From Pseudomonadota bacterium (GTDB lineage: Bacteria > Pseudomonadota > Gammaproteobacteria > Steroidobacterales > Steroidobacteraceae), in NCBI GenBank assembly GCA_021792555.1, contig JAJYUL010000001.1:62001-126000 (forward strand): 64,000 nt of DNA. The letters run 5' to 3'. The position numbers were made by a program, and so were the translations under genes. Shown in pieces: positions 29,316-53,964 of this stretch; position 1 is the first letter of the stretch, and every line of letters begins with the position of its first letter. Below the pieces are notes generated by a model. That model was given only the letters and a program-made list of their open reading frames with translations. It searched no databases and was not told the DNA's origin.

Positions 29316-30502
29316 TGCAGGATGGCCTCGAGGCGCTTTTGCGCCTCGCACAGCAGCAGCCGGCTCGGCTCCTCGGTGTCGAGCGCGCGCGCGAGCAGCT
29401 CGTCGATCACATGCGAGACCTCGGCGAGGCGCGGATGCAGGGGCAGCTCCCGGGCGTGCTCGTGCAGGGCGTCGAGCCGGTGATAGAACGGAACGAGCCG
29501 ATTCACCTGCGCGTCCGCCCAGGTGGAGCGGCGCACACCGATGGCGCCCTCGAGCGTCGTGAGTTTGTCCATGGGCGCGGTGGCCAGGTGGCGCAGGAAG
29601 GACCAGGCCAGATCCTTCTGCCGCGAGCCGCGGGCGAGCGTGATGACCCAGAAGACGTTCAGCGAGACGCTGCGCCCGCCGGGCCCCATCGGCAGCGGCG
29701 CGACCTCCACGCAGCCCTTGACCCGGCTTTCGCTCCAGGTCTCGGCGAGCGCCGCGAATCCGAACCAGTTGGCCATCAGCGCCACCTTCCCCGCGCAGAA
29801 CAGCAGGCCCGCCTTGACGCTGTCGAGGCTGCGGGCGCCGGGCGCGATCGCCGCCTCGTCGCGCGCGAGGTGGCGCAGGAAATCGAGCGCGCTCTCGGCC
29901 TGCGCCGAGCGCAGCTGCGGCCGGGCGCCGGGGCCGAACGGCTCGCCGCCGCGTGACCAGACGTGGATGCAGAAATCGTAGAAGCCGTTGTGGCCGTCGG
30001 GATACAGCGCGAGCGTGGTGCCGTAGAGCTCCCGCTCCGGCGCGTGCAGCCGCCGGGCGGTGGCATGGAAGTCCTCCCAGGTGTCCGGCACGGGCAGGCC
30101 GGCCGCCTGCAGCAGATCCTTGCGGTAGATGAGGCACTCCGGCCCGTCGTGATACGGCAGCCCCCAGAGGCCGCCCGCAAAATCCGCAAGACGCACCAGC
30201 GAGGGGCTCCAGGCGGTTGGAAAATCCGGGATCGGCGCGTGCGCGAGGTGGGTACGCAGATTTTCGATCAGTCCGGCCGATTGCGCCTCGGCGAGCCAGT
30301 CGGTCGAGAGGAAGGCCAGATCGAGCGAGCCGTCGCCGAGGCCGCCCCGGACGAACAGCCGCGCATGCAGGTCATTGAGCTCGAGCGGCTCGAGTTCCAG
30401 TTCGAGCGGCTCGCCGCCCTCGCGCGCGAACGCGGCGAACTGCCGCCGCAGCGCGTTCTCGAACGGATCAAACTTGCGGACCGCTATGCGGATTCGTCGC
30501 AC
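29312..30502 (-). CDS. Family-1 extracellular solute-binding-protein-like, no visible signal peptide
   Basis: MRRIRIAVRKFDPFENALRRQFAAF...GLWGLPYHDGPECLIYRKDLLQAAGLPVPDTWEDFHATARRL, typical MalE-like SBP motifs with a non-hydrophobic N-terminus. Confidence 0.8.
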   Translation of the reverse strand: MRRIRIAVRKFDPFENALRRQFAAFAREGGEPLELELEPLELNDLHARLFVRGGLGDGSLDLAFLSTDWLAEAQSAGLIENLRTHLAHAPIPDFPTAWSPSLVRLADFAGGLWGLPYHDGPECLIYRKDLLQAAGLPVPDTWEDFHATARRLHAPERELYGTTLALYPDGHNGFYDFCIHVWSRGGEPFGPGARPQLRSAQAESALDFLRHLARDEAAIAPGARSLDSVKAGLLFCAGKVALMANWFGFAALAETWSESRVKGCVEVAPLPMGPGGRSVSLNVFWVITLARGSRQKDLAWSFLRHLATAPMDKLTTLEGAIGVRRSTWADAQVNRLVPFYHRLDALHEHARELPLHPRLAEVSHVIDELLARALDTEEPSRLLLCEAQKRLEAILQ

Positions 30503-31307
30503 CGCGCGCCTCCTCTTCGGGCTTCAGCCCGGCGTGCACCGCGATCACATCGGCGCAGGCCTTCAGCGCCGGCAGCATGGTCTCCAGGCTCGGGCCGCTC
30601 TTCTCCTTCAGCGTCGCGATGGTGAGGGCCGCCTTGATGGAGGAGCCCGGCGAGCCGACCGGGACCCCGATATCCAGCCCGCCGACGAACCGCTCGCCTT
30701 CCGATCGCTCGTAGCCGCGCGCGCGGATCGCCGCGAGACGCTTGAGAAACTGCGCGCGCGCGGCGGGCTTCTCGCGCCGCCATTCCAGATCGTGCGTCAG
30801 CAGCTCCTCGCAGTCCTGCGGCTCCATGTTCGCCAGCAGCACGCGGCCGGAGGTGGTGTGCATGGGAGAGTGCTGCGAGCCGACCTCGACCGACAGTCGA
30901 AAGGGCTTTGGGCTCTCCTCCTGCGCCAGCACCAGCACCCGCTCCCGGTGCAGCACCGAGAGGTGGCAGGATTCGCGCAGATCCTCGGCGAGTCCGCGCA
31001 TCAGCGGCTGGGCGGCCTTCAGCAGCACCTCGTAGGGCGAGTGGGTGCGCGACAGCTCGAACAGCTTGAGCGTCAGCGAATACGCGCCCGTGGTCGGCTC
31101 GCGCCGCAGGTAGCCGCGGCTCTCCAGGCAGGCGAGCATGCGGAAGATCTCCCCGGCCTGGCGGCTCAGCGCACGGGCGAGCTGCGCCTGGGTCAGCGGC
31201 ACGGCCTGATCGGAGAGATACTCCAGAACGTCGAGACCCTTCTCGAGCGCCGGCACGGAGTACTTGGTGCGGCGTTCCTCGAGATTGAGCAGCCTATCGT
31301 GTGTCAT
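30468..31307 (-). CDS. IclR-family transcriptional regulator
   Basis: YSVPALEKGLDVLEYLSDQAVPLTQAQLARALSRQAGEIFRMLACLESRGYLRR plus IclR effector domain. Confidence 0.9.
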   Translation of the reverse strand: MTHDRLLNLEERRTKYSVPALEKGLDVLEYLSDQAVPLTQAQLARALSRQAGEIFRMLACLESRGYLRREPTTGAYSLTLKLFELSRTHSPYEVLLKAAQPLMRGLAEDLRESCHLSVLHRERVLVLAQEESPKPFRLSVEVGSQHSPMHTTSGRVLLANMEPQDCEELLTHDLEWRREKPAARAQFLKRLAAIRARGYERSEGERFVGGLDIGVPVGSPGSSIKAALTIATLKEKSGPSLETMLPALKACADVIAVHAGLKPEEEARGATNPHSGPQV

Positions 31308-31323: not shown

Positions 31324-32358
31324 TCAGAGGACGGCTGGCTGAGATTGTGCCTGATGGGCGTCCGGCGCGCCGGGCGGCGGGGCGCTCGGCGCTCGGCGCG
31401 GCGCGCGGCGCCGGCCGCCGACGGTGTAAATCGCAGCCGCCGCGATCAGCACCGTCCCCTCGATCAGGCCCTGGTAGTTTGCGCCCAAGTTCAGCACGTT
31501 GAATCCGTTGGTGAGCGTGTACAGCACCAGCGCGCCCGCGACTGTCTTCAGCACGCTGCCGGCGCCGCCGAAAAGCGACGTGCCGCCGAGGATCGCCGCC
31601 GCGATGACGGTCAACTCCTCGCCCTGCAGCGCGGTGGGATTCATCGCGCCGAACCGCGAGGCGTACAGGACGCCGGCGAAGCCGGCCGCGAGGCCCGAGA
31701 GGACGAACGCGCCGAGCTTGTAGCCGCGCACGTTGATGCCGGCAAGCCGGGCGGCCTCGGGATTGCCGCCCACGGCATAGATGCGCCGGCCGAGCGTGGT
31801 GAAGTGCAGTACCAGCCAGACCGCCAGCGTGAATCCCGCCATGTACAGAATCGGCAGAGGCAGGCCCGCGGCGCGCCCGCTCTCGAAGCCGGTCATGGCC
31901 GTGAGCGCGGCGGGCGTGCCGACCATCAGGGAGCGTCCGTTGGTCACCACCAGCACCAGACCCCGGATCGCGGTGAGCGTACCGAGCGTGACGATGAAGG
32001 CGTTGATGCCGACCAGCTCGACCATCGCGCCGTTGAGCAGCCCGAGCGCGCCGGCGGTGGCGAGCGAGAGCATCATCGCGGCCCAGAAGCCCACGTGGTC
32101 GATCACCAGGATGTTGACGGCCGCGGCGAGCGCCGCGACCGACGCCACCGACAGGTCGAAATTGCCGGTGATCAGCACCACGGTCATCGCCACTCCCATG
32201 ATGGCGACCGGCGCGGTCTGGTAGAGAATGTTGATGAGATTGACGGGGCTGAGATAGCTCGGCCGGCCGAGCGCAGCGGTGACCACCGTCAGGACGGCCA
32301 CCAGCAGCGCCAGCGCGTAGTACACGCCCGCCTCGCGCAGGCCCAACATCTGTCGCAT
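31324..32358 (-). CDS. Sugar ABC transporter permease (RbsC-like)
   Basis: TVVLITGNFDLSVASVAALAAAVN, FIVTLGTLTAIRGLVLVVTNG. Alternative GTG start at 32379 overlapping the upstream stop. Confidence 0.88.
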   Translation of the reverse strand: MRQMLGLREAGVYYALALLVAVLTVVTAALGRPSYLSPVNLINILYQTAPVAIMGVAMTVVLITGNFDLSVASVAALAAAVNILVIDHVGFWAAMMLSLATAGALGLLNGAMVELVGINAFIVTLGTLTAIRGLVLVVTNGRSLMVGTPAALTAMTGFESGRAAGLPLPILYMAGFTLAVWLVLHFTTLGRRIYAVGGNPEAARLAGINVRGYKLGAFVLSGLAAGFAGVLYASRFGAMNPTALQGEELTVIAAAILGGTSLFGGAGSVLKTVAGALVLYTLTNGFNVLNLGANYQGLIEGTVLIAAAAIYTVGGRRRAPRRAPSAPPPGAPDAHQAQSQPAVL

Positions 32359-32375
32359 CGTCCCCCCCGAACTTC

Positions 32376-33902
<1,527 letters not shown>

Positions 33903-33909
33903 GGTCCGC

Positions 33910-34872
33910 TCACCACTGCGGGGGACAGTCGCGGACATTGGCGCGGGTGATGCCGGGCGTTCGGTACGTGATGAAGGCCGCGTGCAGCGGCTTCTTGCCC
34001 GTCACGTCCTCGTAGAGCGCCTCGAAGGCGAGCGCACCGAGCTCCAGCGGCCGGTAGCAGACCGTGCCGTCGATGCGGCCGGCCTCGAGCGAGAGGATCG
34101 CGAGCCGCGAGCCGCCGATGCCGATGAGCTTTGCGTGCGAGCCGGCCGAGCGCACCGCACGTGCACAGCCGACGGCCATGTCGTCCGCTTCGTTGAAGAA
34201 GAGATCGACGTTGGGGTGGGCTTCAAGAATGTTCTGACAGGCGACGTCCGCGTCTTCCGTGCGCCAGTTGCCGGGCTGCGATGCGACGATCCGATAGCGG
34301 ACATGCGCCGCGCGCAGCCCCTGCTCGAATCCGTGCTCGCGCTGCAGCACCTCCGGGAAGCCGGGCGCGCCCTGGATGATCGCAATGTGTGCGACGCGGC
34401 CCCGCGGCAGCAGTCGTGCGGCGAGGCGCCCGGCCTCGCGGCCGGCGGCAGTCTCGTCCTGGGTGACCAGGGCGACGAGCTTCGGGTAGACCTCGCGCAG
34501 CGGCCGCCGGTGTGGATTGCCGACTTGCGAACCGACTGCCACGACCGGGATGCCGGCCCGCGCGGCACGGTTCACCCAGCTCTCGGCGATGACCGAGTCG
34601 AGCGGCATGAGCACGATGCCGTTGACACGCTCGGCGATGAGATCCTGCAGATCGTTCGCCTGCTTCTGCACGCGGTTCTGCGCATCGAGCACGATGGCCT
34701 GGACACCCGCGCGGGCAGCCGCCTGCCGGAACCCCCGGGCGATCGCCGCGGCGAACGGATAGCTCAGCCCCGCGCTCGAGAGACCGAAACGCAGGGGTGC
34801 CGCGGCGGCTGCGTGCGAAAGGATCGCGCCGCACAGCGCTGCCGCAAGGGACGTACCGCGCGCGCGCTTCAC
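33910..34872 (-). CDS. Sugar ABC transporter substrate-binding protein (RbsB-like, periplasmic)
   Basis: Clear signal peptide MKRARGTSLAAALCGAILSHAAAAAPL, then LSSAGLSYPFAAAIARGFRQAAARAGV...DLIAERVNGIVLMPLDS. Confidence 0.9.
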   Translation of the reverse strand: MKRARGTSLAAALCGAILSHAAAAAPLRFGLSSAGLSYPFAAAIARGFRQAAARAGVQAIVLDAQNRVQKQANDLQDLIAERVNGIVLMPLDSVIAESWVNRAARAGIPVVAVGSQVGNPHRRPLREVYPKLVALVTQDETAAGREAGRLAARLLPRGRVAHIAIIQGAPGFPEVLQREHGFEQGLRAAHVRYRIVASQPGNWRTEDADVACQNILEAHPNVDLFFNEADDMAVGCARAVRSAGSHAKLIGIGGSRLAILSLEAGRIDGTVCYRPLELGALAFEALYEDVTGKKPLHAAFITYRTPGITRANVRDCPPQW

Positions 34873-34891: not shown

Positions 34892-35344
34892 TCATGCGAT
34901 CGCCTCGCGCCGCTCGACCAGATACAGATGCTCGCAGGCGAGCACGATCTCGCCGTGCTGGTTGGCGATTTCGACCTGCTCGACGATGATGCCGTGCGTC
35001 TTGCGCTTGGGATGATCGCGCCGGCCGCTGATGCGCGCGGTTACCGTTAGGGTGTCGCCGATGAACACCGGGCGAATGAACCGCACGCGGTCGTACCCGT
35101 ACGACATGGATCGAGGGTTGATGGTCGAGGCCGTCATGCCGATGCCCATGCTCAGCACCAGGGTGCCATGGGCGATGCGCCGCTTGAAGGGCTGCTGCGC
35201 GCACCACTCCGCATCCATGTGGTGCGGGAAGAAATCACCGCTCTGACCGGCATGGGCCACGACGTCCGCCTCGGTCACGGTGCGGCCGAAGGTGCGGCGT
35301 TCGGCGCCGATGTCGTAATCCTCGAAGTACTGCTCGACGATCAT
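34892..35344 (-). CDS. MaoC-family hydratase/dehydratase
   Basis: [48 protein letters not shown] hotdog/MaoC pattern. Confidence 0.88.
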
Positions 35345-36549
35345 GGCGATTCTCCCGGCGCGTCGAGGCCGAAGCGGCGCAGGACCTCGGCGGTGTCGCG
35401 GCCGAGCGCCGGCGCTCCGCGTGGGTGGGTGAGGATCTGCCCGTCGATGCGGATCGGGCAGCGGGTGGTGGTTAGGGTACCGTGCTGCCCGTCATGGATC
35501 TGCTGGGTGAGCTCGAGTGCGGCAAAACCCTCGCTCTCGAGCAGCTGCGGCCAGGTGAACACCTCGGCGCACCAGATGTCGGCCGGCTCGAGGATGGCGA
35601 GCCAGTGCGCCGTGATCTGCGTGGCGAGGTGGGCGGCGAGGATGGACTTGATCGCGGCCCGCTCGGTGAACCAGCGCGCCGGATCGGTGTAGGGGCGAAG
35701 CGGCTCGCAGCCGATCAGCGCGCCGAGCCGGTCGATGGGCGTCATCGCCACCGCCAGATAGCCATCGGCGGTCTGGTAGATGCCGTATGGCGCGCCGATG
35801 TACACACTGGCGTTGTTGACCGCATCGCGCGCCGGCTGCTGGCCGTCGCCGTTGAGGAACGCGGTGAACTGCTCGAACTGCATGTCGATGGCCGATTCGA
35901 ACAGGCTCACGTCGACCCGGCCGCCCCGGCCGGTCCGCCCACGCCGCACGAGCAGCCCGAGCACGCCCTGGCACAGATGCGCGCCGGCCATGAGGTCGGC
36001 GATCGACACGCCCATGGGCACCGGTCCCTGGGCTGCATCCCCCGACAGCCACGCCAGGCCCGACATGGCCTGCACCAGCAGGTCCTGGCCCGGCTTCTTG
36101 CGCCAGGGCCCCTCGGTGCCGTAGCCGGTGATGGCCGCGTAGATCAGCCGCGGGTTCAGCTCCGCCACCGTCGCGTAATCCAGGCCGAGGCGGTCCATCA
36201 CGCCCGGACGGAAATTGTGAACCATCACGTCTGCGCGCCGGATCAGCGCCTTGACCCGCTCCAGATCGGCCGGATCCTTCAGATCCGCAGCAAGGCTCTC
36301 CTTGTTGCGGTTGATGGTGTGAAAGAGCGCGCTGTCCCCGCCGAAGGACTGATCGGCGAGATAGAGGCGGCGGGACAGATCCCCCCCCTGTGGACGCTCC
36401 ACCTTGATGACCTCGGCACCGAGATCCGCCAGCCGCAGGCAACAGGAGGGCCCGGCTAGGAACTGGCTGAAATCCAGTACCACCACCCCCTCCAGCGGTC
36501 GCTCCGCGGTCGTCGTCGGCGCGCCGCGGTCCGCGTGCGCTGTCTTCAA
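35341..36549 (-). CDS. CaiB/BaiF family CoA-transferase
   Basis: [66 protein letters not shown]. Apparent TTG start 36549 with GAGGAG SD. Confidence 0.9.
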
Positions 36550-36653: not shown

Positions 36654-37775
36654 ATGCGCAAAGACCGGTCGATCCTGCTGCGGGGCATGACCTGGGACCA
36701 TCCGCGCGGCTACGGGCCGCTCTCGGCGTGCGCGGCGGCGTGGCTCGAGCGGACCGGGGTACGGATCGAATGGGAGCGGCGCTCGCTGCAGGATTTCGAG
36801 TCTTTTTCCGTGGCCGAGCTGGCCACACGGTACGACCTCATCGTGATCGATCATCCGCACGTCGGGCAGGTGACGCGTGAGGGGTGCCTCCGGCCGCTCG
36901 ATGAGGCCATCGCGCCGGATGCGGTCGGAGCGTCGCTCGCGAGCTACCAGTGGGGCGGGCGGCTGTGGGCGCTGCCGATCGACGCGGCCGCCCAGGTCCA
37001 GGCCTGGCGGCCGGACCGCCTGGCCGAACCGCCCCCGGACTGGGCGGCCGTGCTCGCGCTCGCGGCCGAGGGCGCCGTGGTATGCCCGCTGCGCCCGCCG
37101 CATAATCTGATGGCGCTGTTCACGCTGTGCGGACTGGCCGGCCGTCCGGCCCGCACGCACGGCGGGGAGCTGTTCGATCCATCGGCCGGCCGCGAAGCCT
37201 ATGAACGTCTGCGTGAACTCGCCGCGCACCTCGATGCGCGCTGCAGCGCGGAGGATCCGATCGCGGTTCTCAAGCGCATGGCCGAGCCGGATTCCGCCGT
37301 GCTGTGCGCCCCGCTCATCTACGGGTATGTCAGTTACTCCAGGCCCGAGGCCCGCGGAGCGCGCATCGCGTTTGCGGATCTGGCGCCGCTGTCCCGCGGC
37401 GGCTCGTGCGCCGGCTCGGCGCTCGGCGGCACCGGCATCGCCGTCTCGGCGTTTTCCGCCGAGCCCGACGCCGCGGCCGCCTTCGCCCGCTGGGTGGCCG
37501 GCGCCGAGGCGCAGTGCGGGCCGTACCTCGCCGGCGGCGGTCAGCCGGCGCACCGCGCCGCCTGGAGCGATGCGCTCGCCAATGAGGCCACGCTCGATTT
37601 CTTCCGCAATACGCGCGCGACGCTCGAGGGCGCCTGGGTGCGCCCGCGTCACGACGGCTACATGAGTTTCCAGGACCGCGCCGCCCGGCGCCTGCAGCAG
37701 GCGCTCGAGGCGCGCGAGTCCGCCGCCGCGGCCATCGCGGCGCTCAATCGACTGCATCTCGAGGTGTCACCATGA
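36654..37775 (+). CDS. Solute-binding-protein-like protein, no visible signal peptide
   Basis: MRKDRSILLRGMTWDHPRGYGPLSACAAAWLERTGVRIEWERRSLQDFESFSVAELATRYDLIVIDHPHVGQ..., SBP-like with a charged N-terminus; purine-rich SD upstream. Confidence 0.75.
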   Translation: MRKDRSILLRGMTWDHPRGYGPLSACAAAWLERTGVRIEWERRSLQDFESFSVAELATRYDLIVIDHPHVGQVTREGCLRPLDEAIAPDAVGASLASYQWGGRLWALPIDAAAQVQAWRPDRLAEPPPDWAAVLALAAEGAVVCPLRPPHNLMALFTLCGLAGRPARTHGGELFDPSAGREAYERLRELAAHLDARCSAEDPIAVLKRMAEPDSAVLCAPLIYGYVSYSRPEARGARIAFADLAPLSRGGSCAGSALGGTGIAVSAFSAEPDAAAAFARWVAGAEAQCGPYLAGGGQPAHRAAWSDALANEATLDFFRNTRATLEGAWVRPRHDGYMSFQDRAARRLQQALEARESAAAAIAALNRLHLEVSP

Positions 37776-39610
37776 ACCAACCCACTTCACGCCGCACGTT
37801 TCTGCAATCGGCCGCGACGGCGGCGGGATTCGGGGTCATCGGCGCGCGTGCGCGCTGGGCGCGCGCACGCTCAGCGCCGGCGGCGCCCGGGGCAGGCCGC
37901 AGCGCGCCCATCGAGCGGCTGCACGAGTTCGACTATGGCGACGTCGCGCTCACGGGCGGTCCGCTGAAGGCACAGTACGACTTCATTCATGCGCACTACC
38001 TGGCCCTCGACAACGACCGGCTGCTGCAGGTCTACCGGGAGCACGCCGGCCTGCCCGCGCCCGGCATCGACATGGGCGGCTGGTACGGCGCGGGGGGATT
38101 CATTCCGGGCCACGCCCTCGGCCAATACATCTCCGGCATCGCGCGCATCGGGCGCTGCACCGGCGATGAGGCGTGCCGGTCGAAGGTGCACGAACTGGTG
38201 CACGGCTTCGGCCGCGCGCTGGACGCCAACCCGGTTCCCTATGCCGGCGAGGGCGCTTGGAAGATGTGGCCCGCGTATGTGCTCGACAAGCACATGATCG
38301 GCTTGATCGACGCGTACCGCCTGAGCGGCGTGCGGCCGGCACGCTCGCTGATCCCGCGCGTGATCCACGGCGCGCTGCCGTTCATCTCGCCGGTCAGCCG
38401 CGACCGGATCGGCGTGAAGAATCCCCCCTATGACGAAACCTACATCGTCTCGGAGAACCTGTTCACCGCCGCGCACCTGACCGGCGAGCGCCGCGTGCGT
38501 GATCTGGCCGTGAAATACCTGCTCGACAAGCCGTATTTCGACCCGCTGGCGCACGGCGAGAACGTGCTGGCCGGCCGCCAGGCCTACAGCCACGTCATGG
38601 CGCTCAGCTCGGCGGCCATGGCCTACCTCGAGCTCGGCGAGCCGCGCTACCGCGATGCCATCGTCAACGGCTGGAGGTTCCTCCAGGAGCAAAGCTATGC
38701 GACCGGCGGCTGGGGGCCGAACGAGCTGCTGATCGCCCCCGGCACCGGCGCGCTGTATTCCAGCCTCGCCGCCACCGAGAATCATTTCGAAACGCCGTGC
38801 GGGACGTACGCGACGATGAAGCTCGCCCGCTACCTGATGCGCTTCACCGGCGATGCGCGCTACGGCGATGGGCTCGAGCGGATCATGTGGAACGGACTGC
38901 TCGCGGTGCGTCCGCCGGACTCCAACGGCAACTCGCCGTACTACTCGAGCTATCACCCCGACGCCAAGAAAGTCTTCTACCCGCAGAAGTGGCCGTGCTG
39001 CTCGGGGACGCTGGTCCAGGGCGTGGCCGACTACGTGCGCAACGTCTATTTCCACGCGCCGGGCGCGCTCTACGTGAACCTGTTTACGCCGTCGCGGGTC
39101 CGCTGGCGCACCGGCGGGCGCGCGGTCACGCTCACGCAGCACACCGATTACCCGGCCGGCGAGTCGGTGACGCTGCACATCCAAACGGCCGCGCCCGCGA
39201 CCTTCACGCTCATGATCCGCATTCCCGGCTGGCTCGGCGCGCAGCCCGAGATCCGCGTCAACGGCGCTCGCGTGACCGGTGCGGCCGAGCCGGGTACGTT
39301 CGCCGCGGTGCGGCGCACCTGGCGCGACGGCGACCGGGTGGAGCTGCACCTGCCGCAGGCCTGGCGCACCCAGACGGTCGACCGCTCTCATCCCGGCACC
39401 GTCGCGCTGCTGCGCGGGCCGCTCGTGTACAGCGCGCTCAACTTCGCCGGTCCCGGCACGCCCGTCCCGCGGCTGGATGTCGCCGGCCTCACGCCGGTCA
39501 CGGGCGCGGAGGATTCCTACCGGCAGAGGGACCGCGGCCAGCAGATCCTCTTCGTGCCGTTCTACAAGGTCCTGAACGAGTCCTACAATGTCTACTTCCA
39601 GCGGGCCTGA
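37772..39610 (+). CDS. Tat-exported GH127/DUF1680-type beta-L-arabinofuranosidase-like protein
   Basis: Tat motif SRRTFLQSAATAAGFGVIGARA; FETPCGTYATMKLARYLMRFTGDARYGDGLERIMWNGLL and KWPCCSGTLVQG (putative metal/catalytic Cys region). ATGA overlap with the upstream gene. Confidence 0.85.
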   Translation: MNQPTSRRTFLQSAATAAGFGVIGARARWARARSAPAAPGAGRSAPIERLHEFDYGDVALTGGPLKAQYDFIHAHYLALDNDRLLQVYREHAGLPAPGIDMGGWYGAGGFIPGHALGQYISGIARIGRCTGDEACRSKVHELVHGFGRALDANPVPYAGEGAWKMWPAYVLDKHMIGLIDAYRLSGVRPARSLIPRVIHGALPFISPVSRDRIGVKNPPYDETYIVSENLFTAAHLTGERRVRDLAVKYLLDKPYFDPLAHGENVLAGRQAYSHVMALSSAAMAYLELGEPRYRDAIVNGWRFLQEQSYATGGWGPNELLIAPGTGALYSSLAATENHFETPCGTYATMKLARYLMRFTGDARYGDGLERIMWNGLLAVRPPDSNGNSPYYSSYHPDAKKVFYPQKWPCCSGTLVQGVADYVRNVYFHAPGALYVNLFTPSRVRWRTGGRAVTLTQHTDYPAGESVTLHIQTAAPATFTLMIRIPGWLGAQPEIRVNGARVTGAAEPGTFAAVRRTWRDGDRVELHLPQAWRTQTVDRSHPGTVALLRGPLVYSALNFAGPGTPVPRLDVAGLTPVTGAEDSYRQRDRGQQILFVPFYKVLNESYNVYFQRA

Positions 39611-40874
39611 GCGCGCGCGCGTCGTCGCGCGCTACTGGATCGAAACGGCCCGGCCGCTCGAGGAGGCGGCGGCCCAGATGGCCGGCGAGCAGTCGACCGG
39701 CACGTTCGTGCGGGTCGCCGGCGAGACGGATGCATTGCGCGAACGGTTCGCCGCACGCATCGAGGCGCTCCGGCCGACGGGGGAGACGAACGCGCCGTCG
39801 CTGCCCGGAGCCTGGCAGCCCAAAGGCGGCCCGGGCGTCTGGCGCACCGCGGAGGTCACACTGTCCTGGCCGCTGCACAACTTCGGACCGTCGCTGCCGA
39901 ACCTGCTCGCCACCGTCGCCGGCAACCTCTGGGAACTGAAGGCATTCTCCGGGATGCGGCTGCTCGAGCTGACGCTGCCGCCGGAATTTCTGGCCGCGTA
40001 CCCGGGCCCGCAGTTCGGCGTGTCCGGCACGCGCGCCGTCGCCGGCGTGCACGGGCGGCCGCTCATCGGCACCATCATCAAACCCAGCGTCGGGCTCTCG
40101 CCCGAGGCCACGGCGGCGCGCGTCGCCGAGCTCGCCGCGGCGGGTGTGGATTTCATCAAGGACGACGAGCTGCAGGCCGACGGGCCGCACTGTCCGTTCG
40201 AGGCGCGCTTCAGCGCGGTGATGCGCGTGCTGCGCGAGCATGCGCAGCGCACCGGGCAGCGAGTCCTGTACGCGGTCAACATCACCGGGGAGATCGATCA
40301 GATGCTGCGCCGCCACGAGCGCGTCGTGGCCGAGGGCGGCAACTGCGTCATGGTCAGCCTGCACAGCATCGGCCTGCCCGCCCTCAGCGTGCTGCGCGCG
40401 CACTGCCAGGTGCCGATCCACGGCCACCGCAACGGCTGGGGTCTGCTCGGCCGCTCGCCGGCGATCGGCGTGAGCTTCCCGGCCTGGCAGAAACTGTGGC
40501 GGCTCGCGGGCATCGACCACGTGCACGTCAACGGACTCGACAACAAGTTCTGCGAGAGCAACGAGTCGGTCATCGCCTCGGCGCGCGAGTGCCTCACGCC
40601 GATGTTCGCGCCGCCGGCGCGCGGCTGTGAGATCATGCCGGTGTTCTCCTCGGGGCAGACGGCGCTGCAGGTGCCGGGCACCTGGCAGGCGCTGCGCTCC
40701 GTGGACCTCATTCACGCCTGCGGGGGCGGGATCATCGGCCATCCCGGCGGCGCGGCCGCCGGCGTGCGCAGCCTGCGTCAGGCCTGGGAGGCGGCCGTCG
40801 CCGACATCCCTCTGCTCGAGTACGCGCGCGAGCACCGCGAGCTCGCCGAGGCGATCGCAGCCTTTGGCCGCTGA
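39588..40874 (+). CDS. RuBisCO-like protein (type IV RLP), candidate 3-oxo-isoapionate-4-phosphate decarboxylase or transcarboxylase/hydrolase type
   Basis: GTIIKPSVGLSPEATAARVAELAAAGVDFIKDDELQ, IHGHRNGWG, IDHVHVNGLDNKFCES, FSSGQT, CGGGIIGHPGG; adjacent DUF1537 kinase. Confidence 0.88.
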   Translation: MSTSSGPERARVVARYWIETARPLEEAAAQMAGEQSTGTFVRVAGETDALRERFAARIEALRPTGETNAPSLPGAWQPKGGPGVWRTAEVTLSWPLHNFGPSLPNLLATVAGNLWELKAFSGMRLLELTLPPEFLAAYPGPQFGVSGTRAVAGVHGRPLIGTIIKPSVGLSPEATAARVAELAAAGVDFIKDDELQADGPHCPFEARFSAVMRVLREHAQRTGQRVLYAVNITGEIDQMLRRHERVVAEGGNCVMVSLHSIGLPALSVLRAHCQVPIHGHRNGWGLLGRSPAIGVSFPAWQKLWRLAGIDHVHVNGLDNKFCESNESVIASARECLTPMFAPPARGCEIMPVFSSGQTALQVPGTWQALRSVDLIHACGGGIIGHPGGAAAGVRSLRQAWEAAVADIPLLEYAREHRELAEAIAAFGR

Positions 40875-40884
40875 GGAGCGCCGG

Positions 40885-42198
40885 GTGGATCGAGCTCTGT
40901 ACGCCTATTACGGCGATGACTTCACCGGCTCGACCGACGTGCTCGAGGTGCTGGCATCGGCCGGCGTGCGCAGCGTGCTGTTCATCGGGGCGCCGCAGGA
41001 GCGGCACGTGCGGCGCTTTTCCGGCTGTCAGGCATTCGGCATCGCGGGCGACAGTCGCAGCCGCACGCCGCAGTGGATGCGCGCGCATCTGCCGGCGCTG
41101 TTCGCGCGGCTCGGGGACTTCGGCGCGCCGATCACGCACTACAAGACATGCTCCACGTTCGACAGCTCGCCGCAGATCGGCTCGATCGGCCGCGCGCTCG
41201 AGGTCGGCCACGAGACGCTGGGCGGTCCGTTCATTCCGATCGTGGTGGCCGCGCCGCACCTCGGCCGTTACGTCGCCTTCGGCAATCTGTTCGCCTCCGC
41301 CGCAGGCACCGTGCATCGCATCGATCGCCACCCGACGATGCGCTCGCATCCGGTCACGCCCATGCACGAGGCGGACCTGCGCCGGCACCTCGCCGCACAG
41401 ACATCCATGCGCATCGGACTGATCGATCTGCCGACGCTGGCGGGCAACGCGGCCGCCGAGGCGCTGGCCCGGTGTGTGGGCGCGGGCGATCAGGCGGTGT
41501 TGTTCGACGGGGTCGGCGAGGCGGATCTTCAGCAGACCGGTCGGCTGCTGTGGGCGAACGCCTGCTCGCATACGTTGTTCTGCGCAGGCAGTTCCGGCCT
41601 GCCGTATGCCTTGCTCGCGCCGTGGCGGGACGCGGGGCTGATACCGGCGCGGCGCGAAGCGCCGCCGCGCAGCCGTCCCGTCGATACGCTGCTGGTCATG
41701 AGCGGCAGCTGCTCGCCGGTGACCGAGCGGCAGATACAGGCCGCGCTGCGCGCCGGCTATCACGGCATCGCGCTCGATCCGACGGCTCTGCTCAGCGCCG
41801 CGCACGGCCGCGAAGCGGGCGAGCTGTTGGTGCGTGAGGCGGTCGGCAGCCTGCGGGACGGCCGCAGCACGGTCGTATACAGCGCGCTCGGACCGCTGAG
41901 CGCGGGCGCATCTGCCTCCGGCGAGGCGCTCGGCCGGCGCATGGGCGAGTTGCTCTCGCGCATCCTCGCAGAGGCGCCCGTGCCGCGCGTGCTGCTCGCC
42001 GGCGGGGATACCTCGAGCCACGCGGTCGCGCAGTTGGGTTTGTACGCCCTCACCTGGACGGCGAGCCTCGAGCCGGGCGCGCCGCTGTGCCGGGCGCATG
42101 CCGAGGGGCGCACGGACCTTGAGGGCCTGGAGCTGGTCCTCAAGGGTGGCCAGGTCGGCAGCGAGGCGTTCTTCGAGCGCGTGCGGCTCGGGCGCTGA
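40885..42198 (+). CDS. Four-carbon acid sugar kinase family (DUF1537), candidate 3-oxo-isoapionate kinase type
   Basis: GTG start 40885 after GAGGAGCG: VDRALYAYYGDDFTGSTDVLEVLASAGVRSVLF...HYKTCSTFDSSPQIGSIGRALEV...LAGGDTSSHAV...LVLKGGQVGSEAFF. Confidence 0.88.
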   Translation: MDRALYAYYGDDFTGSTDVLEVLASAGVRSVLFIGAPQERHVRRFSGCQAFGIAGDSRSRTPQWMRAHLPALFARLGDFGAPITHYKTCSTFDSSPQIGSIGRALEVGHETLGGPFIPIVVAAPHLGRYVAFGNLFASAAGTVHRIDRHPTMRSHPVTPMHEADLRRHLAAQTSMRIGLIDLPTLAGNAAAEALARCVGAGDQAVLFDGVGEADLQQTGRLLWANACSHTLFCAGSSGLPYALLAPWRDAGLIPARREAPPRSRPVDTLLVMSGSCSPVTERQIQAALRAGYHGIALDPTALLSAAHGREAGELLVREAVGSLRDGRSTVVYSALGPLSAGASASGEALGRRMGELLSRILAEAPVPRVLLAGGDTSSHAVAQLGLYALTWTASLEPGAPLCRAHAEGRTDLEGLELVLKGGQVGSEAFFERVRLGR

Positions 42199-43658: not shown

Positions 43659-44957
43659 TTACAGCTTGTCCTCGACCGCGACCCGTTCAGGCGCGGCGGA
43701 ACCGTCGGGCCCGTCAGGCTCCACCGTCAGTCCCGCCGTGCAGTCGACCCGCGAGAAAACGATCGCCGCGATCAGCACCATCAGCGCCACCGCCTGCACG
43801 GGCAGTTCGTAGTTGCCGGTGGCGCCGACAATGTACCCGAAGGCGAGCGTACAGAGCACGCCCCCGGCCTGACCGGCGGTATTCATCACGCCGGTGGCCG
43901 CGCCGCCGTGGTTGCCGCCGATGCTCATGCACATGGCCCAGGCCGCCGGCAGCATCAGGTCCATGGTCGCGAATCCCGCGCTGGCGAGGATCACGATCGC
44001 GGCGCGGCTGGTGACGAGACTCATGGCGAGCAGCAGGCCCGCCCCGACGATCAGGCAGCCGGCGGTCATCAGTCGCGTCGCGCGGCGCAGGCCGATCCTG
44101 AGCCCGAGCCGGTCGCACACGGTCCCGCCGACCAGGTTGCTGCCGATGCCGAGCAGAAACGGAAAGGCCGCATACACGCCCATCTGCCGCAGCGTGAAGT
44201 GCCCGGCGTGCACCATCCAGGTCGGAAACCAGTTGAAGTAGAACCAGCTGCCGGCGCCGTAGCAGCCGTAGGCGAGCACGATGAGCCACAGCTGAGGCAG
44301 CTTCAGCAGGCGGCCGAGCGCACCCTTGCCGCCGTGCGCATCGCCGCGACGCTCGCCGATTTCGGCAAGCTCCTCCGGCCCGATACCCGGCTGCTCGGCC
44401 GGCCGGTCGTGGTACCAGAGCCACCAGGCGAGCGCCCAGAGCGCCCCGATGACGGCCAGCACCCAGAACACCGCGCGCCAGCCGAAGTGGATCGCGAGCG
44501 GCACCAGCAACAGCGGCGCGAGCGCCCCGCCGAGGCGGCTCGCGGCCCACACCGCGCCCTGGCCGCGCGCCCGCTCGCGAGCCGGCAGCCAGCGCCACAG
44601 GACCCCCGAGGCGTTCGGATAGGCGCCCGCCGAGCCGATGCCGAAGCAGAAACGCACGATTGCGAGCGGAATGAAGCTCGTGCACGCGCCGGTGAGCGCC
44701 GTGAAGCCCGACCACCAGGCGGCGATGCGCGAGAGCTCGCGCCGCTGGCCATGGCGGTCCCCGAGCGCGCCGGAGGGGATTTCAAACAGGCCGTAGGCGA
44801 TCACGTAGGCGCTGAGCACCCAGCCCCACTGCTCGGGCGTGAGGCCGAGATCCTGCTGGATGCGCGGACCCAGCACCGAGATGGCCATCCGGTCGAGAAA
44901 CGTAATGACCGAGACGACGCTGAGCAGCCCGACGACGGCGTAGCGCTTCTTGAACAT
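43659..44957 (-). CDS. MFS transporter (anion:cation symporter-like)
   Basis: MFKKRYAVVGLLSVVSVITFLDRMAISVLGPRIQQDLGLTPEQWGWVLSAYVIAYGLFEIPSGALGDRHGQR. Confidence 0.88.
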   Translation of the reverse strand: MFKKRYAVVGLLSVVSVITFLDRMAISVLGPRIQQDLGLTPEQWGWVLSAYVIAYGLFEIPSGALGDRHGQRRELSRIAAWWSGFTALTGACTSFIPLAIVRFCFGIGSAGAYPNASGVLWRWLPARERARGQGAVWAASRLGGALAPLLLVPLAIHFGWRAVFWVLAVIGALWALAWWLWYHDRPAEQPGIGPEELAEIGERRGDAHGGKGALGRLLKLPQLWLIVLAYGCYGAGSWFYFNWFPTWMVHAGHFTLRQMGVYAAFPFLLGIGSNLVGGTVCDRLGLRIGLRRATRLMTAGCLIVGAGLLLAMSLVTSRAAIVILASAGFATMDLMLPAAWAMCMSIGGNHGGAATGVMNTAGQAGGVLCTLAFGYIVGATGNYELPVQAVALMVLIAAIVFSRVDCTAGLTVEPDGPDGSAAPERVAVEDKL

Positions 44958-45632
44958 TCAGCCGGTCCCGAGACCGAACACCTCGCGCACCTGGCGCACG
45001 CCGGACTCGGGGCTCGAGAGCACGGGGGCCTGCACGGCGCCTGCCGGCAGCGCCGCCACGACCCGCGCCATGGACGCCTGCGCCAGCACGATCACATCCA
45101 CGTCGCGCATCCTCTCGGTCAGCGCGGCGCTCACCAGGCGATCATGGGTGGCGGTATCGCCCGAGAGCACCGCCTCGAACGCGCCCTCGCACAGGCACTC
45201 GATGACATCGACCGGCCGGTTGGCCTCGAGCGCGGCGCTGCGCACCAGCGCCGATGTGGGCTCGAGCGTCGTGCGCAGCGTGGCGAGCACGCCGATCCGG
45301 CGGCCCTGGCGGACCGCGGCGCGCGCCATGGGCGCGTCCACCCGCAGCACCGGCGGATCGAACAGCTGCTGGGCGATATCCACGGCCGGGCCGACGGACG
45401 AGCAGGTCACGAGCACCCCGTCGGCGCCGCCTTCGAGCGCCGAGCCGACGAGCGTGGCGAGGCGCCGCACGGTGGTCTTCTGCAGCCGCCCGGCCTGGAT
45501 CGTATTCTTGATGAGGCTCTCATCGACGGTGTGGAAGATCTGCACCTCCGGCAGCCATTGCGCGCACAGCGAGGTGAACAGGGGAGTCAACACCGGGGAG
45601 GTGTGCAGCAGAGCGAGTTTGCGTTGCGCCAT
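44958..45632 (-). CDS. Asp/Glu racemase superfamily protein with a single canonical cysteine
   Basis: GADGVLVTCSSVGPAVDIAQQLF; second motif reads VIVLAQASMARV with no Cys. Confidence 0.8.
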   Translation of the reverse strand: MAQRKLALLHTSPVLTPLFTSLCAQWLPEVQIFHTVDESLIKNTIQAGRLQKTTVRRLATLVGSALEGGADGVLVTCSSVGPAVDIAQQLFDPPVLRVDAPMARAAVRQGRRIGVLATLRTTLEPTSALVRSAALEANRPVDVIECLCEGAFEAVLSGDTATHDRLVSAALTERMRDVDVIVLAQASMARVVAALPAGAVQAPVLSSPESGVRQVREVFGLGTG

Positions 45633-45633
45633 G

Positions 45634-48600
45634 TCAGTCTCTCGTCAGTTCATAGGTTCCTGAAGCGAGCTCGGCGGTGAACGCACCGAGGCTGCCGGTC
45701 ATCGGGCCGAGAACGGCCGTGCGCAGCGGCTCACCGTCGGCGCGCCACTCGCGCGGCCGGCCCGGCAGGCGCACCTGCGCGCTGCTGTTCGCCGGTATGC
45801 GCAGACGCAGCCGCGCCAGTCCGCGCGCATCCCCGTCGAGCTCGGTCGAGATCAGACCGAGGCAGGAGTCGTAGTGAGCACGCACGCGCGGGATGCGCGC
45901 ATCGAAGATCGGATCGACCTTGATGCGCCGGAAGCCGGGGGCCGCCTCGTTGATCCCGCCGAGCCGCCGGTACATGAATCCGACCACCGCGCCGAGCGCG
46001 TAGTGATTGAACGAGTTCATCGACTGATCGACCGCGTTGCCGTTCCAGCGCTCCCACATGGTGGTCGCGCCGTGCTCGATCATGTAGCCCCAGGAGGGAT
46101 ATCGGGTCTGCAGCAGCAGCGTGACCGCGAGCCGCTCCTGGCCGGTGTCGGCGAGCGCATCGAGCAGGCAGGGAGTGCCGAGGAAGCCCGTGGACAAGAG
46201 GTCGCCGCGGCTCTCGACGTCCGCGGCGAGCCGCGCGCCGGCCCGGCTGCGCAGCGCCGCGGGCACCAGCCCGAAGCGCAGCGAGAGCGCGTAGCTGGTC
46301 TGGCTGCCGTTGCCGACGGTGCCGTCGGCCCGGACGAATTCCCGCGCGAAGGCCTGCTCGATGCCCCGGCGCATGCGCCGGTAGCGCAGCGCCTCGTCAG
46401 AGTGGCCGATGGCGCCGGCCATCTCGGCCATCAGCGCCGCGCAGCGCGCCCAGTAGGCCGTCGCCACCAGCGCCTTCGGCGTGGTCGCTTCCGCCGGATT
46501 CGGCGCCACATCGGGGTTGGTCGAGACGACCGACAGCCAGTCGCCGAGATCCAGTCCCCGGCGGCGGCGCCAGATGAAGTCCGGGTTGACCTCGGCCACG
46601 TAGTCGAGCCAGCGCTGCATGTGCGGCCAGTTCTCTTCGATCACGGCAGTGTCGCCGTAGCGCCGGTACAGCGTCCACGGCAGGATCACCCCCGCGTCGC
46701 TCCACCCGGCGGTCACCAGCTCGGGGAATGAGCGCGGCTGCGGGGTGACGATCGGGAACGCGCCGTCGGGAGTCTGCCCGGCGCGCACCTCGGCCATGAA
46801 TCGGCGGATGAAGGCGTCGACGTCCATGTTGAACGCGGCGGCATCGAGAAACACCTGGATGTCGCCCATCCAGCCCATGCGCTCGTCGCGCTGCGGGCAG
46901 TCGGTGGGCACGCCGAAGAAGTTCGACCGCTGGCTCCACAGGGCGTTGTGCCAGATCTGCTGCGCGATCGGCTGCTCGAGTTCGAGGGCGCCGGTCTCGG
47001 CGGCGTCGGTGTGCGCCACCACGCCCTCGATCGACTCGCGGGTGGGCACGCCGGGGAAGCCGGTGATTTCGACGTAGCGGAAACCGTGATAGGTGAAGTG
47101 AGGCTCGTAGATTTCCCCGTCAGGATCACCGCGCAGCGTGTAGTGGTCCGTCGCGCGCGCGGCACGCAGGTTCGACGTGTTGATGTTGCCGTCGGGATAG
47201 AGGATCTCCGCGTGGCGCAGGCGCACCGTCGTACCTGCCGGTCCCTTCACGCGCAGCCGGCACCAGCCGGCGAAGTTCTGTCCCAGGTCGCACACATAGA
47301 CGCCGGGACTCGGCTGCGTGATCGCGCGCACCGCCAGCGTCTGCAGGGCGCGGATGGGCGGATCGATCTGCGCGACGAGCCGCTCGCGCGGGCGCGCCCC
47401 GATCGCCGCGCGCCGCCAGGCGGAGGCCTCATAGCCCGGCTGATCCCAGCCCTGCCGCTCGCGCCGCGCGTCGTAAACCTCGCCGTTGTAGATCTCCGAG
47501 GAGAGGATCATCGAGTCCGCGAGCCGCCAGCTCGAGTCCGTCACCACGACGTCGCGGGTGCCGTCGGTGTAGTCGAGCACCAGCTGTGCGAGGAAGCGCC
47601 GTGGACTGCCGGCGAGCGCGTAGCGCTCATTCATCCAGCTGAACGCCGAGGCGTACCAGCCGTCACCGATCAGCGCACCCATCGCGTTGGCGCCGGGGCG
47701 CAGCAGCTCGGTCGCGTCATAGCATTGATAGAGCACGTGGTCGCTGGCCACGGTGATCTCCGGCGACAACCGGGCCGTTCCGAGCCGCTTGCCGTTGATG
47801 TGAGGCTCGTAGGCGCCGAGCGCCGTCGCGTAGAGTCTGGCGCGAGCGAGCGGTTTGGCGACCGTGAAGTCACGGCGCGCGAACATCGCAGGGCGCGGCG
47901 GTCGGGGGTCGCAGGGCGGGGCGGTGGCGGCGGGGCGCGCCGGGGGCCAGGCGGCATCGTCGAAATCCAGACCCGTCCAGCCGGCCGGCGTCGTGCGCGA
48001 GGTGCGCCAGTGCGGACCGCTGGTGAAGCGGACGATGGTGCCGTCGGTGTGCCACACCTTGATGAGCGCGGCGAGTGCGCCGCCCGTGCCGGGCATGAAG
48101 GTGCCGGGATCGGCGCGGCCGCTGACGGCAATGACGTGCGCACCCGGGGTGGCCGGCAGCGCGATGCGCTGCATCGATCCCCAGGGTCGCTCGGTCGGCA
48201 ACCGGACCGGCTCGCCGTCGATCCATACGCCGAGCAGATCGTCCTTGGCGGACAGCCACAGCTGCGCCCGGTGCACCCCGGCGGGCAGGACGAACCGGTA
48301 GCGGAACTGCTGCGGCTCGGGCGCGAGAGCCGGCGCATCGCTCCAGATCCAGTGGATCCCGGCCGCGCGATCGGCGCGCTCCTGCGGATCCTCGATGTCG
48401 AGCCATTCGGCCTGCCAGTCGGACGGGCTGAGCAGGCCCATCTCGAACCAGGCCGGCTCGCTCGGGGAGGCGGCTCGGCCGTGCCCGTCCCAGACCTGCA
48501 CCCGCCACCAGACGCGCTGCCCGGAGTGCAACGTGCTGCCGTCGTAACGGATGTCGAAGCAGCGGCCCGAGCGGACCACACCGCTGTCCCAGAGATCGGC

Positions 48601-48885
48601 CCGGCCGGCTTGGAGTTGCTCGCGGCTCGAAGCTGCCGTGATGCGGTACGCGCCCTGCGCCGCACCGCGCCCTCGGCCCGCGAGCGCCCAGGAGAGGCGC
48701 GGCTGCGGGACTTCGAGTCCGAGCGGCTGCTCGATGCGCTCGGCGCGCAGCCGGGTCACCCGCACAGCCGCGGGCGTCGCGGCGTCGCGCGCGGCGCCGT
48801 GCGCGCCGGCCGGCCGCAGCAGTACCGGCGCGGCCGCGAGCAGCCCGGTGCCAAGAAGCGCGCGGCGGCGATTGATCCTGGCCAT
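45634..48885 (-). CDS. Alpha-L-rhamnosidase, GH78-like, exported
   Basis: MARINRRRALLGTGLLAAAPVLLRPAGAHG signal; RLRAERIEQPLGLEVPQPRLSWAL, FGVPTDCPQRDERMGWMGDIQVFLDAAAFNMD. Confidence 0.92.
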   Translation of the reverse strand: MARINRRRALLGTGLLAAAPVLLRPAGAHGAARDAATPAAVRVTRLRAERIEQPLGLEVPQPRLSWALAGRGRGAAQGAYRITAASSREQLQAGRADLWDSGVVRSGRCFDIRYDGSTLHSGQRVWWRVQVWDGHGRAASPSEPAWFEMGLLSPSDWQAEWLDIEDPQERADRAAGIHWIWSDAPALAPEPQQFRYRFVLPAGVHRAQLWLSAKDDLLGVWIDGEPVRLPTERPWGSMQRIALPATPGAHVIAVSGRADPGTFMPGTGGALAALIKVWHTDGTIVRFTSGPHWRTSRTTPAGWTGLDFDDAAWPPARPAATAPPCDPRPPRPAMFARRDFTVAKPLARARLYATALGAYEPHINGKRLGTARLSPEITVASDHVLYQCYDATELLRPGANAMGALIGDGWYASAFSWMNERYALAGSPRRFLAQLVLDYTDGTRDVVVTDSSWRLADSMILSSEIYNGEVYDARRERQGWDQPGYEASAWRRAAIGARPRERLVAQIDPPIRALQTLAVRAITQPSPGVYVCDLGQNFAGWCRLRVKGPAGTTVRLRHAEILYPDGNINTSNLRAARATDHYTLRGDPDGEIYEPHFTYHGFRYVEITGFPGVPTRESIEGVVAHTDAAETGALELEQPIAQQIWHNALWSQRSNFFGVPTDCPQRDERMGWMGDIQVFLDAAAFNMDVDAFIRRFMAEVRAGQTPDGAFPIVTPQPRSFPELVTAGWSDAGVILPWTLYRRYGDTAVIEENWPHMQRWLDYVAEVNPDFIWRRRRGLDLGDWLSVVSTNPDVAPNPAEATTPKALVATAYWARCAALMAEMAGAIGHSDEALRYRRMRRGIEQAFAREFVRADGTVGNGSQTSYALSLRFGLVPAALRSRAGARLAADVESRGDLLSTGFLGTPCLLDALADTGQERLAVTLLLQTRYPSWGYMIEHGATTMWERWNGNAVDQSMNSFNHYALGAVVGFMYRRLGGINEAAPGFRRIKVDPIFDARIPRVRAHYDSCLGLISTELDGDARGLARLRLRIPANSSAQVRLPGRPREWRADGEPLRTAVLGPMTGSLGAFTAELASGTYELTRD

Positions 48886-48898
48886 GGCGTGAGCCTCC

Positions 48899-50170
48899 TC
48901 AGCCGCGCGGGCCGCCAGTCGCGGCCTCTGCGAGCGCTTTGCCCGGCGCGAACAGCTCCTTGTAGACGGTCTCGGCCATGAGGTGATAGCCGGCGTCATT
49001 CGGGTGCAGATCATCCCCGCACTGATCCGCGCCGCGGTAGTGATGCGGATGCCGCGGATCGCGCAGCGCGCCGTCGAAGTGGATCACGCCGTCGAACCCG
49101 CGGCCCCGGCGGATCCACGCGTTGACCTGCTCGCGCACTTTCTCGCCCTCGGGATGCTCGTAGGTCGAGCCCATGTAGGGGGTGAGCGTGCCGAGGTAGA
49201 TCTTGATGCCGTGCGCGTGCGCCTGGCGGATCAGATCGCGGTAGGCGCCGATGATGGCGGATGCCGGCAGCGGGCCGGTGTCGCCGCGCGGGTCGTAGGC
49301 CCAACCGATATCGTTGATGCCCTCGAGCAGCACGATGGCGCGCACGCCCGGAATGTCGAGCGCGTCACGCTGGAAGCGCGCGAGCGCCTTAGGTCCCGCC
49401 CCGTCGTGCAGCAGACGGTTGCCGCTGATGCCGGAGTTGATCACGACCCAGCGGCGATCCGCGCGGTGCGCCGCGAGCAGACGGGCCAACTGCTGCGGAT
49501 AGCCGCGATGCGTGCCCGGCGTGGAACAGAAGCCTTCGGTGATCGAATCGCCGAATGCCACCAGCACCGGGTGCGGATCGGCAGTGGACACCTCCACGCC
49601 GCTCGCCAGTTCCGGCGCCTGCGGCCGCCCGCCCTGCGGCCAGACCGCTTCGGTCACATGATTGCCGCTCGGGGAGACCCAGAGGTTGTGCAGATGGCCG
49701 GCGGGCGCGGCGCCCGAGGGGTAATAGACGGAGATCGCGATGTTCTCGAAGCGATGGACCGTCATGTTGATGGGATCGCTCACCCACGCCTTGCCGATCG
49801 GGATGACGCCGCCGCGCTTGCCGCCGAAGGTGAGCATGTGCAGGGTGCCCGGCTGCAGCACCCCGTTCGGCGAGGACGCGGCGATGGTGACTTCCCCGAA
49901 CCTCACGGGCGAGAGCCCGAGCTCATTCGTCAGGCGCACGCGCACGCGGTTGCCGCCGGCTTCGAGCTGCACGACCTGGCGCACCGACTGATGCGAGAAC
50001 GTGCGCTGCTGGTTGCAGCCCCATACGGCGGTAGTCGGAAAGGGCGGGGAATACCACGCCTCGACCCAATGTCCGCCGGCCCCGGCGGCCCACGCTCCCG
50101 GAGCGCAGAGGCACATCGCCCAGACGGCGGCAGTGCGCGCGGCCGCTCGACTCCAGCGCCGCAGGCTCAT
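48899..50170 (-). CDS. SGNH/GDSL-family hydrolase, secreted
   Basis: Signal peptide; LVAFGDSITEGF, GINDIGW, DDLHPNDAGYH. Confidence 0.88.
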   Translation of the reverse strand: MSLRRWSRAAARTAAVWAMCLCAPGAWAAGAGGHWVEAWYSPPFPTTAVWGCNQQRTFSHQSVRQVVQLEAGGNRVRVRLTNELGLSPVRFGEVTIAASSPNGVLQPGTLHMLTFGGKRGGVIPIGKAWVSDPINMTVHRFENIAISVYYPSGAAPAGHLHNLWVSPSGNHVTEAVWPQGGRPQAPELASGVEVSTADPHPVLVAFGDSITEGFCSTPGTHRGYPQQLARLLAAHRADRRWVVINSGISGNRLLHDGAGPKALARFQRDALDIPGVRAIVLLEGINDIGWAYDPRGDTGPLPASAIIGAYRDLIRQAHAHGIKIYLGTLTPYMGSTYEHPEGEKVREQVNAWIRRGRGFDGVIHFDGALRDPRHPHHYRGADQCGDDLHPNDAGYHLMAETVYKELFAPGKALAEAATGGPRG

Positions 50171-52208: not shown

Positions 52209-52290
52209 ATCGCTCTCCGCGGGCGCGGCCACGCCCGCCCGGCGCAGGCCCGAGGCGGATACGGCGGGGTTGTCCGCGCGGCCGCCCTCA

Positions 52291-53040: not shown

Positions 53041-53053
53041 GTCGTCGTTCTCC

Positions 53054-53908: not shown

Positions 53909-53964
53909 GGCGTTTCGATGGATCTCTTTCAGGCTGCAGGTACAGAAAAGGCGCGCCGGGGGCC

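Follow-up and report, generated by a model that had tools for sequence, protein, structure and literature searches.

We analysed a 64,000-nucleotide stretch (hereafter the window) of a Steroidobacteraceae genome (GCA_021792555.1, contig JAJYUL010000001.1, positions 62,001 to 126,000; the genome assembly comprises 84 contigs totalling about 3.5 Mb and is 99.2% complete) that holds a run of genes built around a RuBisCO-like protein (RLP) and a DUF1537 kinase. Open reading frames (ORFs) and Pfam matches place four genes on the plus strand between 36654 and 42198. The first (36654..37775; SBP_bac_8, 48.6 bits) encodes a protein resembling solute-binding proteins (SBP-like) with no obvious signal peptide, and the second (37772..39610; Pfam GH127, 132.6 bits) a retaining glycosidase resembling the glycoside hydrolase (GH) families GH127 and GH146, with a twin-arginine (Tat)-like signal. 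They are followed by the RLP (39588..40874), related to OiaX and OiaT, and by the kinase (40885..42198), related to OiaK, whose GTG start at 40885 is preceded by GGAG. The SBP-like and GH127-like genes overlap by 4 nt, the GH127-like and RLP genes by 23 nt, and a 10-nt gap separates the RLP from the kinase. An earlier note, made from the letters of this DNA, had given the same genes, order, overlaps and gap; its title called the run fused, which is wrong, as the genes are adjacent and overlapping with no fusion.

A conserved gene run and its minus-strand partners

The earlier note had proposed to check whether this neighbourhood is conserved. We found the complete order SBP-GH127-RLP-kinase again in at least 10 congeners, and GH127-RLP-kinase also in Sphingomonads and Acidobacteria, with GH127 identities of about 48-57%. 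This arrangement is far beyond chance, and the wider island around it is conserved across the genus.

The most informative neighbours, which the earlier note had left unlinked to the run, lie on the minus strand between 43659 and 49014. They are a transporter of the major facilitator superfamily (MFS) resembling galactonate transporters (43659..44957; MFS_1 189.5 bits, TIGR00893 218 bits), conserved in clade A of the RLP tree described below; a protein with the Asp/Glu-racemase fold, called here RAC (44958..45632; Asp_Glu_race 74.8 bits); and a GH78 alpha-L-rhamnosidase (45634..49014; Pfam Bac_rhamnosid6H 401.6 bits), conserved beside RAC. The AlphaFold model of RAC (predicted local distance difference test score of 95) matched glutamate, aspartate and hydantoin racemases. 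RAC shares with this superfamily the fold and the first catalytic Cys (Cys77), but it is about 12-22% identical to these racemases and carries an invariant Gln (Gln185, 41/41 aligned sequences) at the presumed position of the second Cys, which we placed by eye from the motif. RAC thus lacks the presumed second of the two catalytic Cys of Asp/Glu racemases, and the one base offered by a single presumed catalytic Cys would suit a 1,2-proton shift.

The RLP and the kinase are relatives of D-apionate enzymes

The D-apionate pathways described by Carter et al. in 2018 reportedly use the RLPs OiaX and OiaT with the kinase OiaK. There too an RLP stands beside a DUF1537 kinase, and the proteins of the window are family-level relatives of these enzymes with the same K/D/E residues at the metal site. 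The RLP belongs to the RuBisCO superfamily (RuBisCO_large 238 bits, plus the N-terminal domain), and its best curated family is OiaX (NF042437), with 451 bits against a cut-off of 700. Likewise, the kinase has both expected domains (SBD_N 189 bits, NBD_C 108 bits) and scores best with OiaK (NF042436), with 472 bits against a cut-off of 700. The relationship to apionate enzymes suggested in the earlier note thus holds, with both scores below cut-off.

The carbamylation/metal motif of the RLP is kept as that note had read it by eye, with K191, D193 and E194 of the KDDE motif intact. Its reading of KPS in the place of KPK was correct too, but there is nothing unusual in this departure: Ser stands at this position in all 48 scored RLPs of clades A, B and C and in most OiaJ-linked ones, while Asn is found in VOC-type RLPs and in the solved structure 3NWR, and Ala in OiaX. 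KPS is thus normal for this branch, and we ruled it out as a mark of lost function. The remaining active-site residues distinguish the RLP from OiaX. The OiaX cut-off was reached by five genomes in a phylum sample (772-786 bits), whose RLPs form their own branch and have Gln at H327 and Gly or Cys at S379. In contrast, all clade A, B and C RLPs retain the equivalents of K175, K201, D203, E204, H327, K334 and S379, which in the window RLP are K165, K191, D193, E194, H313, K320 and S354.

In the tree, clade A (the window, Sphingomonads and Acidobacteria; support 100/99) sits beside the OiaJ-linked RLPs, and clade B (Bacteroidota, Verrucomicrobiota and Planctomycetota; support 99/98) clusters with OiaX (86/94). 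The earlier note had held that grouping with an unrelated RLP clade would speak against its reading, and no such grouping was seen. No curated OiaT model was matched by the RLP. Among solved sequences, the closest across its full length is 3NWR (417 bits), which sits in a VOC/TRAP-linked clade and has KPN whereas the window RLP has KPS. A single clade of all RAC-type RLPs was rejected (approximately unbiased test, p 3.6e-5), so RAC and this RLP family came together on more than one occasion, or RAC was swapped. Separately, the source genome holds a second RuBisCO_large match (453 bits; genome G000, contig C5:48613-49536), most likely a true form I RuBisCO, and many congeners have similar second matches, 33-35% identical to the RLP.

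The RLP-kinase pair occurs with alternative front ends

We compared about 100 loci, 80 of which were named in one scan of genome contigs and labelled by homology. The kinase adjoins the RLP in almost every one, and the pair is combined with alternative front ends. In a first type, it occurs with a PGDH_C/KARI-like protein, which we take to be OiaJ, given that over-cut-off OiaX genes also have it as a neighbour. In a second type, found in Burkholderiales (L069-L097, L164, L168) and including 3NWR, it occurs with a VOC protein, a TRAP transporter and a LacI regulator; three gene clusters (7, 8 and 10) considered as apionate genes proved to be the TRAP transporter subunits and the VOC protein. 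The third type, to which the window belongs, combines the pair with RAC and glycosidases. This RLP-kinase-RAC cassette is present in Gammaproteobacteria, Sphingomonads, Acidobacteria, Verrucomicrobiota, Planctomycetota, Bacteroidota, Chloroflexota, Paenibacillus and one haloarchaeon.

Some loci (L050-L053, L055, L058, L063) have the pair without any of the three front ends. A short-chain dehydrogenase/reductase (SDR) gene lies near the pair in L050, L051, L052, L055 and L058, and in some untyped loci a TRAP transporter gene separates the RLP from the kinase. In Paenibacillus (L046, L056, L061), a protein of 574-577 aa, with no Pfam or NCBIfam match for the L046 copy searched, is encoded one gene upstream of RAC or RLP.

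Aceric acid hydrolase accompanies the cassette in other phyla

Aceric acid is a rare branched sugar of side chain B of rhamnogalacturonan-II (RG-II), in plant pectin. Chemically it is 3-C-carboxy-5-deoxy-L-xylose, and BT1003 is an aceric acid hydrolase (PMC5698469, PMC10850190, PMC8218411). In other phyla, we found the homologous RLP-kinase-RAC cassette beside GH127 proteins of the BT1003 type, recognised by the family NF049879 (cut-off 950 bits). In a Chloroflexi locus (L048), such a protein (996.5 bits) lies directly upstream of the RLP with a gap of 28 bp and matches PDB entry 5MQO, which we take to be BT1003, at 775 bits. The hydrolase is 35-55 bp from the RLP in genomes G739, G527, G755 and G837, and GH127 proteins near or next to the RLP score 943 bits in Bythopirellula (L064) and 899 bits in Opitutales (L059). 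Runs of hydrolase, RLP, kinase, RAC and SBF transporter genes were seen in these neighbourhoods.

This association extends to genome samples, for which we give hypergeometric values that ignore relatedness. All 7 Bacteroidota genomes with the RLP (of 299) also have an over-cut-off hydrolase, present in 16 (2.9e-10). Similarly, of 291 Verrucomicrobiota genomes, 10 have the RLP and 11 a hydrolase scoring more than 870 bits; the overlap is 10/10 (1e-17, or 8e-15 without the two seed genomes). The 870-bit line was set after seeing the scores, the next one down being 762. Hydrolase and RLP share a contig in all co-occurring genomes except Olivibacter (G141), where they lie on separate contigs. When NF049879 matches of every strength are counted, 31/31 genomes with RLPs of clades A-C have one, versus 2/19 for other RLP types. 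In addition, RAC of the window and the RACs of these aceric-acid-hydrolase loci share 46-54% identity, which suggests that they catalyse one reaction.

The glycosidase of the window is of a different subtype. Its alignment retains ET(P)C and CC, the Glu/Cys/Cys-Cys motif of GH127/GH146, and the protein scores 88.8 bits with NF049879, below the cut-off. Its best PDB match, closer than aceric acid hydrolase, is 5OPJ, presumably a GH146 beta-L-arabinofuranosidase. Clade A loci carry this subtype in place of the NF049879 type.

A proposed route for aceric acid

Together, these data show a real, conserved module and point to a likely new pathway variant; in this respect the earlier note, which had proposed a variant pathway for a branched acid sugar, is supported. 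We consider it on balance probable that the module catabolises a branched sugar with a carboxyl group, aceric acid of RG-II side chain B being the likeliest. For clades B and C, genomic context supports this substrate well; for the window, the support is by extension.

From the gene content, conservation, fold families, active-site residues and hydrolase association, we infer a route of five steps. First, the exported GH127/146-like hydrolase would free aceric acid while GH78 takes off rhamnose. Second, the MFS transporter would import aceric acid. Third, RAC would turn the aldose into its 2-ketose, a beta-keto acid. Fourth, the kinase would phosphorylate C1, giving P-OCH2-CO-C(OH)(COOH)-CHOH-CH3, a keto-phosphate that by chemical reasoning would be a close homologue of 3-oxo-isoapionate-4-phosphate, with CHOH-CH3 for CH2OH. 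Fifth, the RLP would remove or move the carboxyl group, leading either to 3-phosphoglycerate and L-lactate (OiaT-like) or to 5-deoxypentulose-1-phosphate (OiaX-like). Since the RLP keeps residues lost in OiaX, an OiaT-like split is plausible from its sequence. That it yields 3-phosphoglycerate and L-lactate without loss of CO2, fed by RAC as an aldose-ketose isomerase, is a tentative proposal that we hold possible though doubtful. A flavin mononucleotide (FMN)-dependent protein similar to L-lactate dehydrogenase (26239..27435, minus strand; FMN_dh 441.7 bits; NF008398 317 bits, cut-off 376), also present in five congeners, might be the outlet for lactate.

We found no published bacterial aceric acid pathway in the literature searched. 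If true, this would be the first candidate for one and a new substrate class for the RLP-DUF1537 pair, which would then be a reusable back end behind several front-end enzymes, and the fate of one of the oddest plant cell-wall sugars would become directly testable.

Several observations weigh against aceric acid as the substrate. First, no NF049879-type hydrolase above 89 bits was found in the window genome, and the different GH127/146-like subtype weakens the transfer of this substrate to it; with 5OPJ as its nearest structure, the enzyme could release arabinose instead. Second, no protein of the apiosidase family PF13204 was found in the genome, so this is not a full RG-II degrader. Third, since RG-II loci bring together enzymes for many sugars, co-occurrence alone leaves the substrate unfixed; also, genomes within a phylum are not phylogenetically independent. 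Fourth, as the RAC-type RLPs are not one clade, function is not transferable by RLP orthology alone, and we know of no RAC-fold member acting as an aldose isomerase. Fifth, the neighbouring rhamnose route described below would also yield lactate, which makes the lactate dehydrogenase weak as specific support.

Alternative substrates and reactions

One alternative is that the module breaks down a different plant sugar acid, carboxylated or branched and derived for instance from a glycoside containing rhamnose or arabinofuranose; the GH127/146-like protein would then be a beta-L-arabinofuranosidase. The similarity to 5OPJ and the clade A subtype argue for such a substrate, as do a GH39 protein, SDRs and two aldehyde dehydrogenases encoded in the same conserved island. 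However, the identity of RAC to the RACs of aceric-acid-hydrolase loci argues against it, and ordinary arabinose has no carboxyl group for the RLP. We regard it as unlikely.

Aceric acid could also be degraded with the RLP as a plain OiaX-like decarboxylase, an aldolase then cutting 5-deoxypentulose-1-phosphate into dihydroxyacetone phosphate and acetaldehyde. This sub-case of the aceric acid explanation is consistent with OiaX, a decarboxylase, being the best curated family and with the clustering of clade B with OiaX. The His and Ser replaced in OiaX are retained, however, and no aldolase was recognised among the annotated neighbours (the genome was not searched for one); we hold this version to be rather improbable.

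Apiose or apionate, the substrate suggested in the earlier note, fares worse. In place of OiaJ, which was not found, the window has RAC, the MFS transporter and glycosidases. The genome has no match to PF16896, which we take as the OiaJ type (the control genomes have none either), and RAC loci are without OiaJ except one (L029). Moreover, several RAC loci have a separate cassette of a fucose-isomerase-like protein, a split transketolase and an FGGY kinase, whole in L036, L056, L059 and L060 and partial, with the region cut, in L061, L208-L211 and L214. We take it to be the ApsI/AptAB/AplK apiose route (NCBIfam gave no such name for these proteins), so that apiose seems served without the RLP. 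Thus, D-apiose or D-apionate catabolism with OiaJ replaced by some other enzyme, although in line with the best curated families and with the position of clade A nearest to the OiaJ-linked RLPs, is quite unlikely given scores far below the OiaX and OiaK cut-offs and a genome lacking matches to both the OiaJ-type and apiosidase families.

Other genes of the window

On the minus strand, a CoA-transferase of family III (35341..36549; Pfam 342 bits) and a MaoC-type hydratase (34892..35344; Pfam 79.7 bits; 57-64% identical to homologues in Bacteroidota and Verrucomicrobiota loci) precede the run. The earlier note had left them and the SBP-like protein unexplained; they are not chance neighbours, as all three have homologues that again stand together close to aceric acid hydrolase in Bacteroidota and Verrucomicrobiota (L224, L225, L226, L230), and perhaps serve another RG-II sugar. 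Further along lies an Rbs-type sugar ATP-binding cassette importer (31324..34872, minus strand) with permease (31324-32379), ATPase (32376-33938) and binding protein (33910-34872), the ATPase assigned by its ORF and cross-locus homology and the other two by Pfam; the importer is conserved within the genus and likewise in Sphingomonas gei (L041). An IclR regulator (30468..31307, minus strand; Pfam) and, on the plus strand, a GlcD-like flavin adenine dinucleotide-dependent hydroxyacid oxidase (24819..26222; TIGR00387 240 bits, cut-off 567.9) were also found.

Beside GH78, three minus-strand genes (51306-54262) suggest that rhamnose is probably used too: an amidohydrolase-type sugar lactonase of the rhamnose/fucose type (51306..52232; Amidohydro_2 141 bits; NF052480 120.6 bits, cut-off 400), an SDR dehydrogenase likely of the rhamnose route (52291..53073) and a 2,4-didehydro-3-deoxy-L-rhamnonate hydrolase-like protein (53054..54262; NF053535 492.4 bits, cut-off 500), whose true start is probably near residue 119. 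Between them and GH78, a GDSL esterase-type protein (48899..50527, minus strand; Pfam 105 bits), with a true start probably further in, is conserved in the genus.

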